NCBI RefSeq assembly: GCF_000738005.1
Contig: NZ_JHAL01000002.1
Coordinates: 990,634 to 1,054,633, forward strand
Length of the DNA stretch: 64,000 bases
Direction of reading: 5' to 3'
DNA from: Bifidobacterium crudilactis
GTDB taxonomy: Bacteria; Actinomycetota; Actinomycetes; Actinomycetales; Bifidobacteriaceae
Part shown: in pieces, positions 1,584-62,388 of the stretch
Layout: each line of letters begins with the position of its first letter
Position numbering within the stretch: position 1 is the first letter of the stretch
The notes under the pieces: generated by a model
The model's input: only the letters and a program-made list of their open reading frames with translations
The model's database searches: none
What the model was told of the DNA's origin: nothing
Position numbers and translations under genes: made by a program

Positions 1584-1694
1584 GGTGTCCAGTCTATTGT
1601 CGAAGGAAGATAACTGCTTCAAAAGAATAGCAACGTTGCGAAAAAACGCTCGAAAGCTGTCCTGGTGATGCAGTCATCTCCGTAAATGCATGAA

Positions 1695-2492
1695 TTATGC
1701 TTCCACGGCGTCGATGGCGTCGATGACGGCACCTCTGAAAGCGTGCCGCTCAAGCTCCGCGACACCTTTGATTGTGGTGCCGCCGGGCGAGCAGACGGCA
1801 TCCTTCATGGCGGCGGGAATCGTGCCGCTTGCGATGTTCAAAGCACCGGTCCCCTGGACCATCTTCGCCGCAAGCCGGTAGGCCGAGGCTCGTGGCAAGC
1901 CATGCTTCACACCGGCATCGGCGAGCGCCTCGATGAACATCGCCGCATAGGCAGGGCCGCATCCGGCTATGGTGCCGCCGATAGAGAGCTGCGAGGATTC
2001 CACGGTTTCGATCAGCGCGATGTCATGGAACAAGTCGTGGAAGAGCTCACGCTGCTCGTCCGTAAGAGTGTCCGAGGATTCGGTGACCAGCACACCCTGG
2101 CCGACGGCAATCGGAGTGTTCGGGATGGTGCACACCACGTGGGCCTGTTCGGGCAGGAAGGCGGCGAATCGTTCCAGCGTGAACCCTGCCGCGATGGAAA
2201 CGACGAAAGTGGAATCATTCGCAAGTTCGCTTGCGATCGGCTTGCAGAGTTTTTCGACAAGATAGGGTTTCACGGCGACGATCACCACATCGGCCGCGGC
2301 GGCCACCTCGGCCGCGGAATGCAATGCTCTCGCGCCGATGGACTTCGTGGATTCCTGCAATTTCTCGAAATGGCCGGCACATGCGACTATCTGATTGCCT
2401 CTCACCACCCCGGCATCGACCAGACCTTGCGCGATGGCCTGCGCCATATTGCCGTATCCGATAAATCCGACTGTCAGACTGCTCAATTCCAT
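1695..2492 (-). CDS. proC: pyrroline-5-carboxylate reductase
   Basis: 265 residues. It reduces 1-pyrroline-5-carboxylate to L-proline with NAD(P)H, the last step of proline synthesis, in the cytoplasm. The N-terminal Rossmann motif GFIGYGNMA is at residues 9-17. The C-terminal helical dimerisation domain carries the family signature with SPGGTT followed by ELERHAFRGAV. The start at 2490-2492 is favoured by AAAGGA six bases upstream; longer in-frame starts lack this. The neighbouring proline iminopeptidase-type hydrolase on the same strand would release proline from peptides, so the two genes both feed proline pools, although a hairpin and about 160 bp separate them. Confidence 0.93.
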   Translation of the reverse strand: MELSSLTVGFIGYGNMAQAIAQGLVDAGVVRGNQIVACAGHFEKLQESTKSIGARALHSAAEVAAAADVVIVAVKPYLVEKLCKPIASELANDSTFVVSIAAGFTLERFAAFLPEQAHVVCTIPNTPIAVGQGVLVTESSDTLTDEQRELFHDLFHDIALIETVESSQLSIGGTIAGCGPAYAAMFIEALADAGVKHGLPRASAYRLAAKMVQGTGALNIASGTIPAAMKDAVCSPGGTTIKGVAELERHAFRGAVIDAIDAVEA

Positions 2493-7026: not shown

Positions 7027-7791
7027 ATGATGGAGCACGAAGACCAGGTCATCACCGTGGTTATCGCCGATGACCAGGAATTGGTCCGTGCGGGTTTCTC
7101 CCTGGTCATCGGTTCGCAGCACGATATGCGCGTTGTAGGACAGGCTGCCGACGGCCGGGAAGCTCTGTCCTTGGCGGAAAGTCTTCATCCCGACGTGGTG
7201 CTGATGGATGTCCGCATGCCGCTTATGGATGGCATCGAGGCGACCCGTCGCATCACCGAGTCGGGTTCCGCCACATCCCAAGACGGCGCTCCGGAGATTA
7301 CCAGAGTGGTGATACTGACCACTTTTGACCTCGATGAATACGTGATGGCCGCCATCAATGCCGGAGCTTCGGGATTTCTGCTCAAGGACACCGAACCCGA
7401 GACGCTGTTGGCATCCATACGAACAGTCAAACAGGGCAACGCCATCATCGCTCCGTCCGCCACGCGTCGACTGATAGAAAACATGCTTCAGGAGGAAGCG
7501 CAGCTGGCTGCCGACCGCAACACCGCACAGGAAAGCGGCCCATCCGGCCCGTCGCATGAGACCGACAGGAATTCCGGGGAATACATCGACCCGGAATTGG
7601 CCGAGCTCACCCAGCGTGAACGCGAGGTGCTCATCGAGATAGCCCACGGTCTGAGCAATCAGGAAATCGCCGACCTGCTGTTCATCAGCCTGCCGACCGT
7701 CAAAACGCACGTCGCCCATATCCTGCAAAAAATCAACGCCCGGGACCGGGTGCAGGCGGTGGTATTCGCGTACGAGAATCACCTCGTCTAA
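7027..7791 (+). CDS. NarL/FixJ-family response regulator
   Basis: 254 residues. The N-terminal receiver domain has acidic residues D15/D16 and the phosphoacceptor D61 in VVLMDVRMP; the Lys of FLLKD is also present. The C-terminal LuxR-type helix-turn-helix has LTQREREVLIEIAHGLSNQEIA and a recognition helix around SLPTVKTHVAHILQK. It follows the fused histidine kinase by 140 bp and is its likely partner, since HisKA_3 kinases pair with NarL-type regulators. Start: ATG 7027 (or the adjacent ATG 7030) after AGGAGAAGAGGGAAC. It converges on the ABC exporter genes, which are plausible targets by proximity only. Confidence 0.92.
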   Translation: MMEHEDQVITVVIADDQELVRAGFSLVIGSQHDMRVVGQAADGREALSLAESLHPDVVLMDVRMPLMDGIEATRRITESGSATSQDGAPEITRVVILTTFDLDEYVMAAINAGASGFLLKDTEPETLLASIRTVKQGNAIIAPSATRRLIENMLQEEAQLAADRNTAQESGPSGPSHETDRNSGEYIDPELAELTQREREVLIEIAHGLSNQEIADLLFISLPTVKTHVAHILQKINARDRVQAVVFAYENHLV

Positions 7792-7833
7792 ACCGTCCGT
7801 CGCATATTGGCGTGCAAAAGGGCCACCGAATAC

Positions 7834-7904
7834 GATAACTGCACTAAAAGGACAGCTTTTCGCAACAATTTCTCGGGAAAAGCTGTCCTTTTAGTGCAGT
7901 TATC
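7834..7904. repeat. family 1 palindromic repeat, copy 1
   Basis: A perfect 27-bp inverted repeat: the left arm at 7834-7860 starts GATAACTGCACTAAAAGGAC and the right arm at 7878-7904 ends TTTTAGTGCAGTTATC, with a 17-base loop containing AATTTCTCGG. It lies between the convergent response regulator and ABC permease genes, where it could act as a bidirectional terminator. Five related copies occur elsewhere in the window. Confidence 0.95.
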
Positions 7905-7952: not shown

Positions 7953-10625
7953 TTAGGCTTCAGCGAGCGCCTCGACGGGCGATGTGCTCACCGCATGTTT
8001 GGCCGGAAGGACGCTGGCAAGCAGCGCTGCGACCACCGCCACCCCAACGATGGCCGCATCCATCCCCCAATCAAGCGGATAGGCGACCGCGCCGAATTGT
8101 GCGAATACCAGGTAGGACCCGATCCATCCGAAAACGGTGCCGAGAACCAGTCCCACGACAACGCTGCAGCCGGAGATGAGCAGAGCTTCGATCGCCAGCG
8201 AGGCTCGCAGTTGTCCTCTGGTCATACCGATGGCTCGCAGAGTCGCCGATTCCCGCAAGCGTTCGATCACCGAAAGACTCAGCGTATTCGCCACGCCTAT
8301 CAACGCAATCACCACGGCGACGGCCAGCAAGGCGACCAGTATCATCAGCAGCACGTTGACGATCTGTTCCCATTGCGACCTGACGGCTATGGATCCGCCG
8401 ACGTTGACGCCATCCACATCGCTCAATGTGTCCTTGATGTTGGTGACCAACGTTCCGGCATTCTGCTGCCCGTCCGAACTAATCCATATCTCGTTGCCCT
8501 CGGCACGGATGCCCGCCGCGCCGAGCGTCCCCGGTTTGACGATGCCATACAATTCGTTGTCGCTCTCGACGCCCCTGTAGTTGGCGCCAACGACTCGGAA
8601 CTCCCTGGACACCCCGTTCTGTGCCGTCCCAGTGGAGGATGTACCGTCCTGACCGTTATCAGAGCCCGATGCATTCAGCCCCAGGGTCACCTTGCTCCCC
8701 TGTACCAGACCGTTCTTGCCGGTGGCCAGCGCCTTCGGCACCAGGATGTCACCATCCTGAACAGCGGAAACCGATGCATGCATCAGTTCGCTCACACCGG
8801 ACGCTGAAAGCTCGTACACACTCATCCCCTGCTGGTGTCCGTCCACTGACAGCATGGCAGGTACGGTCGGCACCAAGCCTGCCGCATGCACACCGCCAAC
8901 CTTCTTGACTTTGTTCACATCCGCGGCAGTGAGATGATTTCCAGTCACCTGAATATCGACACTGTATCGAGCATCCAAGGCATTGCTCATCGTCTGCTTC
9001 GCACTGGCCGCACCCGTTCCCAGGCATGACACCAGAGTGACTCCTATGAGCAGCGCGGCACCCGTCGAAGCCACACGCCTAGGATTCTTCTGGATGTTGG
9101 CGGAAGCGATCCGCGTGGCCGGTCCGATGTGCGACAGCAGTGCACCTACGCCCTTGAGCAGCCATGGCATCCATCGGCTCGAACACAACAGCACCCCGAC
9201 GAAGAACATCATCACGCCGAGTATTCCCACACCCAGTATCTGCGTGGACTGATCAGCGGTCAACGCAGCGGATTCACCGGTGAGCGACCTTCTGGTCAGC
9301 ACTATGGGCAGTATGACGGCCACCACTCCGAGAACCATCAGGAGCAGACTCGTCATCGTCGAAAGCCACCCGTGACGCCTTTTCACAGAGGCTTCCATTG
9401 GTTGCAAGGCCTCAAGTGGCGTAACCCCAGTCGCTGCGCGTGCGGAGCCGGATGATGCCAGGATGGTGATGACAATGCCGAACAGTATCGGCACGACGAA
9501 CACGGGCCATGACAGCACCACACTGAACTGCGCTCCGGCAAGATTGACACCACTGACGCCAAGCAAGGTCATCAGCAGCAAGGCGCACCCTACACCCACC
9601 ACCGAGCACACGAGTCCGAGGATGCTCGCCTCGACGAGCACCGAAGCGTAGAGCTGGGATTTGCGAGCGCCTATCGTTCTGAGCAGGGCCAACGTCCTGC
9701 GTCGCTGCGCGATCATCACCTGGAAGGTGTTCGCGATGACTATGGCGGCGACGAACATCGCGAGCACGCCGAATGCAAGAATGAAGGTCGTGGTGATATT
9801 CACCTGTCCGCCTCCGAGGCTTTTCATCATGCTGTCCTCAAGGGCTTTACGCTCTTTGACCTGGAAACCGTGTGGAAGCGCCGCATCTATTTTACGCAAG
9901 GTCAGCGTCTGCTGTTCCGCCGTCGCAGGTGCGAGTTCGATGAACATCGTGGAGATGGGCAGATTCTCAAAGTTTGTTGTGGAGCCAAAACCGGCCAAGC
10001 CGGCAAAATCCTGCTCCACCACGATTGCGGCACCGCCGTAATACGCATAGGCGCCTGCCGTGTCCTTGCTGATACCGACGACCGTCATCGTCCGGGAATC
10101 GTTCTGTCCTGCTTCGTCACCACCTGACGGGGCCGTGCTTTTGACCGTGTCGCCGACATGCAGCGACAGCAAATTCGCCATCGACTCGGGAACAGCGATT
10201 TCACCCGAATGCGCAGGCCACAGCCCTGATGCAAGGCTGACAGGCATGACGCCGCTCGAATTGGCCATGCCTATCACGGCCGTGGAGGAATGTTCGTTGC
10301 GGCTGCCTCCCGAAATCTCGATCTGGCTGACCGTGTCGGGACGCACACCGGAAACACCCTGTATCTCGCGAATGCGATCCAGATTCATGCTCGCAACGGT
10401 TTCGGATGTACTTCTGCCGTCTTCCGCATCAGAGCTGCCGGTATTGCTCACCGCATACTGCGCGTCTCCGAAACTGGCGGACACCTGCTGCCTCAATGAA
10501 TGATCGAGCGCATTCCCGAACAGGAAGGTACTTGATACGAACATCGTGCCGATGATGATGGCGATACCCGCGGGAACGAGCATTCGCATACTGCGTTTCA
10601 TGAGTTTGAACGTTATTGACCACAT
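7953..10625 (-). CDS. MacB/FtsX-type ABC transporter permease
   Basis: 890 residues. Membrane permease of the FtsX/MacB superfamily with two FtsX repeat units: one N-terminal segment, a large extracytoplasmic domain (about residues 40-270), three membrane spans, a central pair of spans, a second extracytoplasmic domain and three C-terminal spans. FtsX-type signatures are the runs near ALLRTIGARKSQL and ATLRAIGMTRGQL, one in each half. The start ATG (complement of 10623-10625) has AAGGA ten bases upstream. It is encoded just downstream of its ATPase on the same strand. Such exporters carry peptides, antibiotics or lipids; the substrate here is unknown. Confidence 0.92.
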   Translation of the reverse strand: MWSITFKLMKRSMRMLVPAGIAIIIGTMFVSSTFLFGNALDHSLRQQVSASFGDAQYAVSNTGSSDAEDGRSTSETVASMNLDRIREIQGVSGVRPDTVSQIEISGGSRNEHSSTAVIGMANSSGVMPVSLASGLWPAHSGEIAVPESMANLLSLHVGDTVKSTAPSGGDEAGQNDSRTMTVVGISKDTAGAYAYYGGAAIVVEQDFAGLAGFGSTTNFENLPISTMFIELAPATAEQQTLTLRKIDAALPHGFQVKERKALEDSMMKSLGGGQVNITTTFILAFGVLAMFVAAIVIANTFQVMIAQRRRTLALLRTIGARKSQLYASVLVEASILGLVCSVVGVGCALLLMTLLGVSGVNLAGAQFSVVLSWPVFVVPILFGIVITILASSGSARAATGVTPLEALQPMEASVKRRHGWLSTMTSLLLMVLGVVAVILPIVLTRRSLTGESAALTADQSTQILGVGILGVMMFFVGVLLCSSRWMPWLLKGVGALLSHIGPATRIASANIQKNPRRVASTGAALLIGVTLVSCLGTGAASAKQTMSNALDARYSVDIQVTGNHLTAADVNKVKKVGGVHAAGLVPTVPAMLSVDGHQQGMSVYELSASGVSELMHASVSAVQDGDILVPKALATGKNGLVQGSKVTLGLNASGSDNGQDGTSSTGTAQNGVSREFRVVGANYRGVESDNELYGIVKPGTLGAAGIRAEGNEIWISSDGQQNAGTLVTNIKDTLSDVDGVNVGGSIAVRSQWEQIVNVLLMILVALLAVAVVIALIGVANTLSLSVIERLRESATLRAIGMTRGQLRASLAIEALLISGCSVVVGLVLGTVFGWIGSYLVFAQFGAVAYPLDWGMDAAIVGVAVVAALLASVLPAKHAVSTSPVEALAEA

Positions 10626-13014: not shown

Positions 13015-13085
13015 GATAACTGCACTAAAAGGATAGCTTTGAGCAACAATTTCTCGGAAAAAGCTGTACTTTTAGTGCAGTTATC
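13015..13085. repeat. family 1 palindromic repeat, copy 2
   Basis: Arms begin GATAACTGCACTAAAAGGAT and end TTTAGTGCAGTTATC, with two mismatches between arms (GGATAGC against GTACAGC). The loop GCAACAATTTCTCGG matches copy 1. It lies between the convergent aminotransferase and O-acetylhomoserine sulfhydrylase genes. Confidence 0.93.
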
Positions 13086-13113: not shown

Positions 13114-13153
13114 GGCAACGCCCCATCGGGAAATGAGCCGATGGGGCGTTGCC
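13114..13153 (-). terminator. strong GC-rich hairpin after the sulfhydrylase gene
   Basis: A perfect 16-bp stem: GGCAACGCCCCATCGG at 13114-13129 and its complement at 13138-13153, with an 8-base loop. It starts 20 bp past the sulfhydrylase stop. No T-run follows on either strand. It probably terminates the minus-strand gene and may act in both directions. Confidence 0.65.
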
Positions 13154-22302: not shown

Positions 22303-23331
22303 ATGACGACAACACCAGCACAGCGGTCCAACGGCTCTATCGCTCTGACCCTTCGCGTTACGAGATTCACCCCTCGCCAGGAACGAGCAAGGAAGCAACG
22401 CAATCCTTTCGCCGCTCAAAGCGCTTCTTCTCCTTTCGCACAGCGCAAACGGCAACGGGGTAAGCAGTGGGTTCAGGAATATCAGCTGAACGTATATCCG
22501 CAGGACACGATTCTGGATTGTCTGCTGGCAGTCAAGCGCGATATCGACCCGACCCTGGCCTTCCGCTATTCATGTGGTCACGGGATGTGCGGGTCGGATG
22601 CCGTAAGCATCAACGGCACACCGACTTTGCTGTGTACGGCGACCGTGGCGGCTTGGGCGAAGAAGGATACGCCTCTTCACGCCACCGACTCGAGCGGATT
22701 CCGCCAGACCGGTGTGTCTTTGAAGACTTCCGCAGGACCGAGCGCAAAGAATGACGAACAGTGCGAAATCCAAGAGCATACAGCCCCGTCCGCAGGCTTC
22801 GACGGTCTCGGTACGAGCAACGAACAAGACGGCACCCAACATAACGGTGCCGAAGCCATGACGGTCGACCTTGCTCCACTCCCCGGGTTTCCGGTTCAGC
22901 GCGACCTGATTGCCGATATCGACCAGATGATGGAGCAGATCAAAAGGCTCAAACCCTACCTCCAGGCCAGCGGGCAGCTTCACACCACGCAGGATGGCGC
23001 GGTGAACATGTTCGAATATCTGCAGAGTCCTGAGGAGCTGCAGCGATTCGAGCTGCTCAGCAATTGCATTGCCTGTGGCGTGTGCGAGGGAAGCTGCCCG
23101 GTTTATGCGGGTGGAGAGGCATTCATCGGACCGGCGGCCCTTGTCATCAACTCCCGGTTCATCAACGATTCTCGTGACGATGCCACCAAGGAACGCCTCG
23201 ACGATATCAGCGATGCTGACGGCATCGCCGCCTGCCAATCCGTGCGGGCATGCTCCCGTCACTGCCCGAAAGGCATAGACGTAGGAGAAGAGATGTGGAA
23301 GCTGGTCGAACTCCGGCCCTCTGGGAGATAA
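22303..23331 (+). CDS. sdhB: succinate dehydrogenase/fumarate reductase iron-sulfur subunit
   Basis: 342 residues. Three cluster regions: [2Fe-2S] with C91, C96, D99 and C111 (YSCGHGMCGSD...LLC; an Asp in the third position is also known in E. coli SdhB); a ferredoxin-type NCIACGVCEGSCP; and CQSVRACSRHCPKG for the third cluster. Unusual are a basic insertion at about residues 25-55 and a Ser/Gly-rich insertion of about 60 residues between the [2Fe-2S] domain and the helical domain. The start ATG has AGAGGAAGGGAACG upstream. The stop codon TAA (23329-23331) is the TAA of the GATAAC end of repeat copy 3. No sdhC/D membrane gene follows. Confidence 0.93.
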   Translation: MTTTPAQRSNGSIALTLRVTRFTPRQERARKQRNPFAAQSASSPFAQRKRQRGKQWVQEYQLNVYPQDTILDCLLAVKRDIDPTLAFRYSCGHGMCGSDAVSINGTPTLLCTATVAAWAKKDTPLHATDSSGFRQTGVSLKTSAGPSAKNDEQCEIQEHTAPSAGFDGLGTSNEQDGTQHNGAEAMTVDLAPLPGFPVQRDLIADIDQMMEQIKRLKPYLQASGQLHTTQDGAVNMFEYLQSPEELQRFELLSNCIACGVCEGSCPVYAGGEAFIGPAALVINSRFINDSRDDATKERLDDISDADGIAACQSVRACSRHCPKGIDVGEEMWKLVELRPSGR

Positions 23332-23397
23332 CTGCACTAAAAGGACAGCTTTTGGGCAATGATTTCTCGGAAAAGCTGTCCTTTTAGTGCAGTTATC
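23327..23397. repeat. family 1 palindromic repeat, copy 3
   Basis: The left arm starts GATAACTGCACTAAAAGGAC and the right arm ends TCCTTTTAGTGCAGTTATC, with near-perfect pairing over about 26 bp and the loop GGGCAATGATTTCTCGG. The sdhB stop codon lies within the first six bases of the left arm. It separates sdhB from the co-directional methyltransferase gene. Confidence 0.95.
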
Positions 23398-25358: not shown

Positions 25359-25427
25359 GATAACTGCATCAAAGGACGGCATTTCCGTGAATTCGTAGCA
25401 CAATGCTGTCCTGTTGATGCAGTTATC
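25359..25427. repeat. family 1 palindromic repeat, copy 4 (diverged)
   Basis: Ends are GATAACTGCATCAA and TTGATGCAGTTATC. Inner stem positions differ from copy 1 on both arms at once (ATCAA against ACTAA, GCATT against GCTTT), so pairing is kept. It lies between the LOG gene start and the nhaA stop, which are co-directional. Confidence 0.88.
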
Positions 25428-28274: not shown

Positions 28275-28396
28275 TTCTCCGACTTCCTTTTGTGAATTGA
28301 CGCACCCCTCACCCAAGCGTCAGTATCACGTCTGCAACCCACTCGAATCACTGCAGCACCACACAGCTGGAACATGGAATGCGACTGCGTGTATCG

Positions 28397-28432
28397 GCAC
28401 GCGAAGCCAGATAATTTACTGGCTTCGCGTGC
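28397..28432 (-). terminator. hairpin after the LPYTG surface-protein gene
   Basis: Perfect 14-bp stem: GCACGCGAAGCCAG at 28397-28410 and CTGGCTTCGCGTGC at 28419-28432 with an AT-rich 8-base loop. It sits 27 bp past the surface-protein stop. There is no T-run. It separates that gene from the convergent tRNA unit. Confidence 0.6.
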
Positions 28433-28458
28433 TAATGCACACAGTTCCGAGGAAAGAG

Positions 28459-60905: not shown

Positions 60906-61228
60906 GTGTTCTCCAACTGTGTTCATGATTCATCAAACCCTCGAGAACGTGTGCCGTATCCCCATGCGCAGACGCAGCGGTGAAATTCGGGGGCACTTCC
61001 GTTCTAAACCTTGAACTCCTCAGGCACGCCCCGGTACATTGGGCTTCATGAAATGTTCATCCCGACTTCACCCAGCAACGCCTTCAGCGAAGATAACTGC
61101 ACTAAAAGGACAGCTTTTTTGAACGAAATAACGAAAATTGCTGTCCATTTAGTGCAGTTATCTCTGATATTGCAGTTATCACCGCCCCGGCCACACAGTG
61201 GTCTGCCAAGCGTGACAGACTGAGTGGT
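60906..61228. promoter_or_regulatory. divergent region between the PAP2 phosphatase and cyclophilin genes
   Basis: About 320 bp with repeat copy 6 at 61092-61162. It should contain the promoters of both genes, so the palindrome may lie within or near one of them. I cannot assign -10 or -35 boxes. No protein-like frame. Confidence 0.35.
61092..61162. repeat. family 1 palindromic repeat, copy 6
   Basis: Left arm GATAACTGCACTAAAAGGAC, right arm ending CATTTAGTGCAGTTATC, with a single mismatch pair in the stem and a different loop. A third, lone GCAGTTATC end follows at 61171-61180. It lies in the divergent gap between the PAP2 phosphatase and the cyclophilin gene, so this copy is not at the end of either gene. 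Confidence 0.92.
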
Positions 61229-61896: not shown

Positions 61897-62388
61897 ATGA
61901 ACACCACCATCAAGGCCCGCAACAGCTATGCAAAAGGCACCAGAAGCTATACCATGTCACGCATCCGTGGGAAGGATACCGGAATTGAGCGTCTTGTACG
62001 GAGCTTTCTCTTCTCCAAAGGCCTGAGATTCCGTAAAAACGACAAACGGTATCCCGGGCATCCGGATGTGGTGCTGCCGCGTTGGCATACCATCATCTTC
62101 GTCAATGGCTGCTTCTGGCATGCGCATGACCAATGCGCGAAGTCGTCCACGCCAAAATCCAATGTCGAATTCTGGACGAAGAAACTCATGCGCAACAAGG
62201 AACGAGATGCGCAGCAACAACGTGAGCTCCAGGAAGCCGGGTGGAATGTGCTCGTGGTCTGGGAATGCGAATTGGACCGAAAGCACCGGCAGGAACGTCT
62301 GAACAGCCTCTACCGACAGATAGTCACTCCTCCTGAGGCGGAAGAGCATATTCAGACCTCCGATGTCACTCGTCGGACGCTAAGCTGA
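61897..62388 (+). CDS. vsr: Vsr-type very short patch repair endonuclease
   Basis: 163 residues. Nicks next to T:G mismatches that arise from deamination of 5-methylcytosine. Family motifs: MSRIRGKDTGIERLVR, RKNDKRYPGHPDVVLPRWHTIIFVNGCFWHAHDQC with the metal-binding Asp57 and histidines, and later FWTKKLMRNKERD and VLVVWECEL. Usually Vsr genes sit beside a cytosine-5 methylase, but none is seen in this window. It is 128 bp downstream of the cyclophilin gene and followed by the oxidoreductase gene. The start ATG 61897 has a weak upstream GGCACG. Confidence 0.92.
   Translation: MNTTIKARNSYAKGTRSYTMSRIRGKDTGIERLVRSFLFSKGLRFRKNDKRYPGHPDVVLPRWHTIIFVNGCFWHAHDQCAKSSTPKSNVEFWTKKLMRNKERDAQQQRELQEAGWNVLVVWECELDRKHRQERLNSLYRQIVTPPEAEEHIQTSDVTRRTLS

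Follow-up and report, generated by a model that had tools for sequence, protein, structure and literature searches.

What kind of element is the palindrome of about 71 bp that recurs in this stretch of DNA, and what could have spread it? The window, by which we mean the whole 64,000-nucleotide stretch that was analysed, corresponds to C2:990634-1054633 of the 2.36-Mb draft genome (G000). A preliminary description had listed six copies, and all six lie exactly at the coordinates claimed for them, with the 9-bp ends GATAACTGC and GCAGTTATC seen on each. A seventh copy, at 1609-1678, had been overlooked. The features are as follows, in window positions.

1609..1678, unstranded: copy 7, 70 bp, one end mismatch, 17/26 pairs
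7801..7833 (limits approximate), minus strand: one-sided tail of copy 1, GTATTCGGTGGCCCTTTTGCACGCC..., read on the minus strand
7834..7904, unstranded: copy 1, 71 bp, in the convergent gap between gene 7027-7791 (+) and the ABC permease gene 7953-10625 (-)
13015..13085, unstranded: copy 2, 71 bp, in the convergent gap between class IV aminotransferase (+) and O-acetylhomoserine sulfhydrylase (-) genes
23327..23397, unstranded: copy 3, 71 bp, in a co-directional gap
25359..25427, unstranded: copy 4, 69 bp, ATCAA subtype, co-directional, 61 bp behind nhaA
51637..51707, unstranded: copy 5, 71 bp, 14 bp behind the nadE stop codon
61092..61162, unstranded: copy 6, 71 bp, in the divergent gap between PAP2 protein (-) and cyclophilin (+) genes
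61172..61180, minus strand: an extra single GATAACTGC end, 9 bp from copy 6

There are 14 exact matches to the 9-mer end in the window. Twelve of these are the ends of the six copies, and the other two lie at 1609 and 61172. A covariance model built on 28 copies, of which 13 come from G000 and 15 from the sister species G024, recovers the six copies on either strand with E-values of 3e-19 to 6e-13, and the seventh, which is more decayed than the others, with an E-value of 3e-8; copies 1, 2, 4, 5 and 6 belong to the training set of the model, and copy 3 and the seventh copy lie outside it. RNA folding energies of the six copies range from -33 to -48 kcal/mol. The stems described earlier are present, but their lengths are more variable than the claimed 26-27 bp: copy 1 is paired over 28 bp rather than 27, the stem of copy 2 is interrupted by mismatches, and that of copy 5 extends over 23 bp. 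The paired stem changes reported for copies 4 and 5 are real. An Rfam scan of the window gave tRNA as its sole match. A gene for a Vsr mismatch endonuclease lies near copy 6, at 61897-62388.

A detailed census of 1.258 Mb, or 53% of the genome, yielded 93 copies. The unit is an inverted repeat of 68-71 bp with nearly fixed ends, a freely varying loop, and a stem whose pairing is maintained by double changes. Its length is 71 bp in 73 copies, 70 bp in 17, 69 bp in 2 and 68 bp in 1, and the ends carry no mismatch in 68 copies, one in 18, two in 6 and three in 1. The 9-bp ends are near-invariant, the 23-bp stem varies in pairs, and the loop is hypervariable; mean identity among the 73 full-length copies is 0.97 for the ends (a value inflated by the search criterion), 0.86 for the arms and 0.49 for the loop. 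All 23 outer pairs are Watson-Crick in 43 of the 93 copies, and among the 73 full-length copies 38 are perfect 23-bp palindromes, including 9 whose arm departs from the consensus. The covariation pointed out in the preliminary description holds across 28 sequences, in which both sides have changed at 14 of 26 pairs and 90.1% of cells are paired, compared with 79.4% after shuffling and 32-50% with slid partners.

Paired variation reaches even the ends in some copies (GATACCTGC with GCAGGTATC), and a paired end change also occurs in G024 (GATAAGTGC with GCACTTATC). This observation bears on the idea that the paired 9-mers form a dispersed recognition sequence, such as a DNA-uptake signal or a nucleoid site, for which the fixed 9-mer ends and the nearly fixed distance between them would speak. 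In the same 1.258 Mb, 4 single exact ends lie outside palindromes, where chance alone would give 6.7; single GATAACTGC sites are not over-represented, and the uptake signal was rejected. A recognition sequence of this type seems very improbable.

The flanks are non-random for about 5 bp on either side, with T at +4 in 64% and at +5 in 58%, and the exact unit may therefore slightly exceed 71 bp. A tail of ~40 bp, GTATTCGGTGGNCCTTACACGCCAAAATGCGAAGAGCC, adjoins about 15 copies on one side. Its core scores at least 14/19 at 14 of the 93 copies and at 4 of 2000 random places, the motif having been drawn by eye from the same copies on which it was scored. The tail of copy 1 scores 14/19, and a similar tail adjoins 13 or 14 other copies among the 93. 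Seven weaker tail matches away from copies have 3 or 4 mismatches each and appear to be due to chance.

Exact-ended copies number 106 in the whole genome, and a reversed-pattern control gives none. Within the genus (27 genomes), such copies are found only in this genome and in G024, which has 30, and the same two genomes are the only ones among 189 of the family. At the level of the order, exact-ended copies occur in 1 genome, our own, of an even sample of 149, and a pattern that matches 70-bp copies alone (11 in the own genome) hits 1 of 396 genomes, a weak negative because of that restriction; G024 and the next relative, Bifidobacterium psychraerophilum LMG 21775 (G023), lie outside both samples. 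The covariance-model scan, in which at most the best 150 candidates per genome were scored, gives lower bounds of at least 75 copies (at least 150 two-strand matches) in G000 and at least 42 copies (at least 84 two-strand matches) in G024. It gives one weak match in G006 (8e-6) and none in the other genus genomes among the best candidates scored. The model-based search of the genome and of related bifidobacteria that was proposed at the outset thus turned up further copies in two species.

A NadE tree groups G000 with G024 (support 91/84, under the threshold for a firm branch) and places B. psychraerophilum as the next relative. The latter has no copy within the 400 kb read and no exact-ended copy genome-wide. 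Phage and plasmid records contain no match to the palindrome; two viral contigs match one arm, and four others with exact ends have no stem and look like chance. No description of the repeat was found in the literature covered, which mostly excludes subscription papers, and none of the matches listed for texts containing the exact 9-mer concerns bifidobacteria by its title.

The palindrome has dispersed within its own genome, in part recently. Many pairs of copies are identical at 68-70 of 71 bases (96-99%), mostly in unrelated flanks. For example, the copies at 1105418 and 407093 agree at 69 of 71 bases, with flank identities of 7 and 11 of 40; another near-identical pair, 81823 and 1150381, has related flanks. 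In G024, a pair of copies separated by 4.2 kb shows no difference across the full 71 bp, and the similarity stops at the first flanking base. Synteny was compared with each relative at 25 sites, taken from 34 copies in the region, of which the rest gave no clear flanks. A family member is retained by B. psychraerophilum at 0 of the 25 sites; the preliminary description had proposed to look for empty sites in close strains, and this species offers sites without the element. Together with the near-identical copies at unrelated places and the identical pair in G024, these element-free sites support the earlier suggestion of a REP/MITE-like mobile palindrome.

A small number of copies are shared by descent with the sister species at corresponding sites. 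Family members are kept by G024 at 3 of the 25 sites (992242, 1155194 and 1164667), where the stem sequences differ from those of G000 yet still pair, and a strongly altered palindrome occupies a fourth (1098140). The first of these sites is that of copy 7, at which B. psychraerophilum has a bare GATAACTGC in the same place, either a remnant or a pre-existing target; two such 9-mers in 400 kb are about the number expected by chance, so that position alone speaks for this one. No element occurs at the place corresponding to copy 5 in either relative. At the site orthologous to copy 1, G024 has an 82-bp palindrome of unrelated sequence with a perfect 28-bp stem (C1:1638381-1638462).

Seven large surface-protein genes with LPXTG-type ends, recognized by eye, have the palindrome 24-26 bp behind each stop codon:

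G000 C1:81823, 296037 and 518102: palindrome behind the stop codon
G000 C2:3331, 914654, 1150381 and 1251729: palindrome behind the stop codon

Six of the seven genes have nearly the same 3' sequence, and these six paralogues are presumably SpaA-like, as judged by eye. The copies that follow these LPXTG-type paralogues probably arose with the genes by duplication and not by six insertions, which may apply to about five of the 93.

Gene context, taken from a simple gene caller (896 genes), places 40 of the 93 copies in convergent gaps, 46 in co-directional gaps, 6 in divergent gaps and 1 inside a called gene. Random placement in gaps would give 16% convergent, 54% co-directional and 30% divergent (chi-square p ~1e-13). 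The spread of the window copies had been taken to mean that they are not plain terminators, and this argument fails genome-wide, because the 86 copies in convergent or co-directional gaps are distributed as terminators would be, and REPs likewise. The preliminary description is thus partly supported: its paired changes are confirmed and the mobility it suggested is supported, but its argument against terminators does not hold. For the co-directional copies, the median distance to the preceding stop codon is 29.5 bp, and in 36 of the 46 the start of the following gene is farther away than that stop. The element and a gene end overlap in six G000 gaps, five times by exactly the bases GATAA, which give the stop; within the window, the GATAAC of copy 3 provides the TAA stop codon of an SdhB-like gene ending at 23331. 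Copy 7 is 16 bp behind gene 1695-2492 (-) and upstream of a gene for a YchF-type GTPase. The 34 copies of G024 comprise 14 in convergent, 14 in co-directional and 4 in divergent gaps, and 2 at stretch edges; two of the 34 are weak, including one at 1583671 that fits better into the second family described below.

The strong 3'-end bias is what would be expected of ordinary intrinsic bidirectional terminators that have never been mobile and are alike in sequence by descent or convergence. Such terminators would also be consistent with the unrelated hairpins (score of at least 9) that stand in the place of the element at 11 of 25 syntenic sites in B. psychraerophilum and 10 of 25 in G024, and with the median of only 31 bp that remains besides the element in the 14 occupied convergent gaps of G024. 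Moreover, the palindrome shares with them the arrangement of an A-tract, a G+C-rich stem and a T-tract in 62 of the 93 copies, as well as its location. However, the other 31 copies have no such tracts, and the palindrome differs from bidirectional terminators in forming a dispersed sequence family with conserved outer ends, 9-bp sequences that lie beyond any terminator core. Near-identical copies behind unrelated genes, the identical pair in G024, and the occurrence of exact-ended copies in only 2 of 189 family genomes likewise argue against an origin as plain terminators, which we consider unlikely.

Whether the mobile palindrome acts at the 3' ends of transcripts is a separate matter. The distance to stop codons does not differ between the 31 copies without tracts and the others (p 0.70). 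In the 46 co-directional copies, mismatches on the transcribed strand comprise 14 G-T, 20 A-C and 25 others; A-C mismatches are not fewer than G-T, and there is thus no sign of RNA wobble tolerance. Convergent gaps hold another strong hairpin in 8 of 40 cases when occupied and in 29 of 73 otherwise, and a canonical terminator in 2 of 39 and 17 of 63, respectively. After control for gap length, 2 other terminators are seen in occupied gaps versus 5.2 expected (z -1.85), and the value for any hairpin is z -0.35; because the raw scarcity shrinks in this way, it is not relied upon. A perfect 16-bp hairpin, GGCAACGCCCCATCGG..., is located at 13114-13153, in the same convergent gap as copy 2 and 28 bp from it, so that copy 2 is not the sole candidate terminator there.

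These data are also compatible with a DNA-level palindrome that has no host function, is kept symmetric by template switching between its arms, and sits behind genes because insertions elsewhere were purged. This proposal shares mobility with the explanation we prefer and denies a 3'-end function alone. The lack of an excess of G-T over A-C mismatches, a location independent of A/T tracts, and the weakness of the terminator depletion are in its favor, whereas it accounts poorly for the conserved ends and for the survival and re-pairing of copies at sites common to both species. We regard it as possible but doubtful. In sum, mobility and a REPIN-like build are well supported, and terminator activity is no more than plausible.

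REPINs are tied to domesticated RAYT transposases. The corresponding profile, Y1_Tnp (PF01797, RAYT type), matches 0 of 27 genus genomes at E<=0.001 (controls match in 5 of 14) and 0 of the 3 genomes of the clade at E<=10 (controls match in 10 of 14). Thus, the known REPIN mover is missing, and the RAYT gene that had been put forward as a possible partner was not found in the 27 genomes of the genus. Target duplications, also put forward earlier, are absent in that none of at least 4 bp directly adjoins the palindrome at any of the 93 sites; duplications of 3 bp are present at 4 of 93, against 0.96 by shuffling. These results bear on the possibility of a MITE, an internally deleted DDE-type insertion sequence with GATAACTGC inverted ends, to which a short, intergenic inverted-repeat element in many copies would otherwise correspond. 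Because single ends show no excess, no larger element with these exact ends resides in the 53% of the genome read, and this, with the missing duplications, makes a MITE of this type improbable. Copies bracket 6 genes in the G000 stretches and 0 in those of G024, and none of these appears transposase-like by eye.

A second palindrome family, AACTGTGC...GCACAGTT, has 23 exact-ended copies in G000, 24 in G024 and 0 in the 25 other genus genomes; its reversed control gives one match in each of 14 of those 25. Its length is 64 bp in 40 of 47 copies and 63 or 65 bp in the remainder, and several pairs are spaced 92-94 bp apart. The G000 copies include the following.

C1:81702: second-family copy
C2:857642 and 857735: second-family copies
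C2:1148454, 1148547 and 1148640: second-family copies

A related, imperfect palindrome is found in the window at 28384-28445, and the 400 kb of B. psychraerophilum contain one diverged member. The pairs at 92-94 bp recall the tandem REPIN clusters described in the portions of PMC3116915 available. Both families are confined by their exact ends to G000 and G024, and both therefore ask for a mover there. Tentatively, this might be a REPIN-like system whose mover lies outside the Y1/RAYT group and might serve both families, and the palindromes might have become the standard two-way transcript ends of these two genomes.

The explanation that best fits these observations, at a probability of roughly two in three, is that the palindromes are small, non-autonomous mobile elements that are REPIN-like in build and distribution and have no recognisable RAYT transposase. 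An IS200/IS605-derived palindromic element would agree with them in lacking a target duplication, but the missing Y1 gene does not fit. Other short, dispersed, non-coding and often palindromic repeats include RUP, BOX, ERIC and Correia/NEMIS, several of which are MITEs with target duplications. The palindrome differs from them in sequence and length, and no target duplication is seen here.

According to the parts of PMC3116915 available, REPINs are symmetrical, depend on spacer length, undergo compensatory changes, and have a 71-bp spacing in group GI. The palindrome resembles the REPINs of Pseudomonas and other bacteria, so far as the available text of PMC3116915 and PMC8049555 describes them, in its symmetry, conserved ends, set-length spacer of free sequence and compensatory changes, and also in a population that numbers around a hundred copies or more and is inherited vertically. 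Unlike REPINs as presented there, it has another end sequence and is accompanied neither by a Y1/RAYT gene in the genus genomes searched nor by an excess of singlets, such as the REP singlets common in Pseudomonas (PMC3116915, in part). The GTAG or CGTC tag is likewise absent from the unit, whose ends are GATAACTGC and GCAGTTATC.

The accessible sections of PMC3733652 place most REPs in the gaps of uni-directional and convergent genes and note that a REP can provide the stop codon. The palindrome is comparable to those GTAG/CGTC-tagged REPs in occupying convergent and co-directional gaps near stop codons and in sometimes giving the stop. It differs from them in ends that read GATAAC..., in being a single palindrome of ~71 bp where REPs have units of 20-40 bp, and in showing no bias toward G-T stem pairs, for which the same sections cite evidence in REPs. 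Because a RAYT, which is a defining part, was not found, and because tags and singlets differ, we class the palindrome as REPIN-like in its working and not as a REPIN.

How might such an element work? The palindrome presumably moves as a folded single-stranded hairpin, because there is no target duplication, the length is fixed, and pairing is kept despite the absence of an RNA wobble preference. The enzyme that moves it would be one still to be found, or one since lost. The likeness of the two arms may be maintained in part by copying from one to the other during replication. Copies would survive chiefly behind genes, where they may be harmless or may act as a two-way transcript end, and the palindrome could give a stop codon (GA-TAA-C) from either side.

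A dense, partly recent and stem-covarying population without a RAYT would mean either that another enzyme can move such hairpins or that the mover is gained and lost over time. The set of three species, two with exact-ended copies and one without, makes the question of the mover testable. In addition, the palindrome offers a natural series of 3'-end hairpins within one bifidobacterial lineage.
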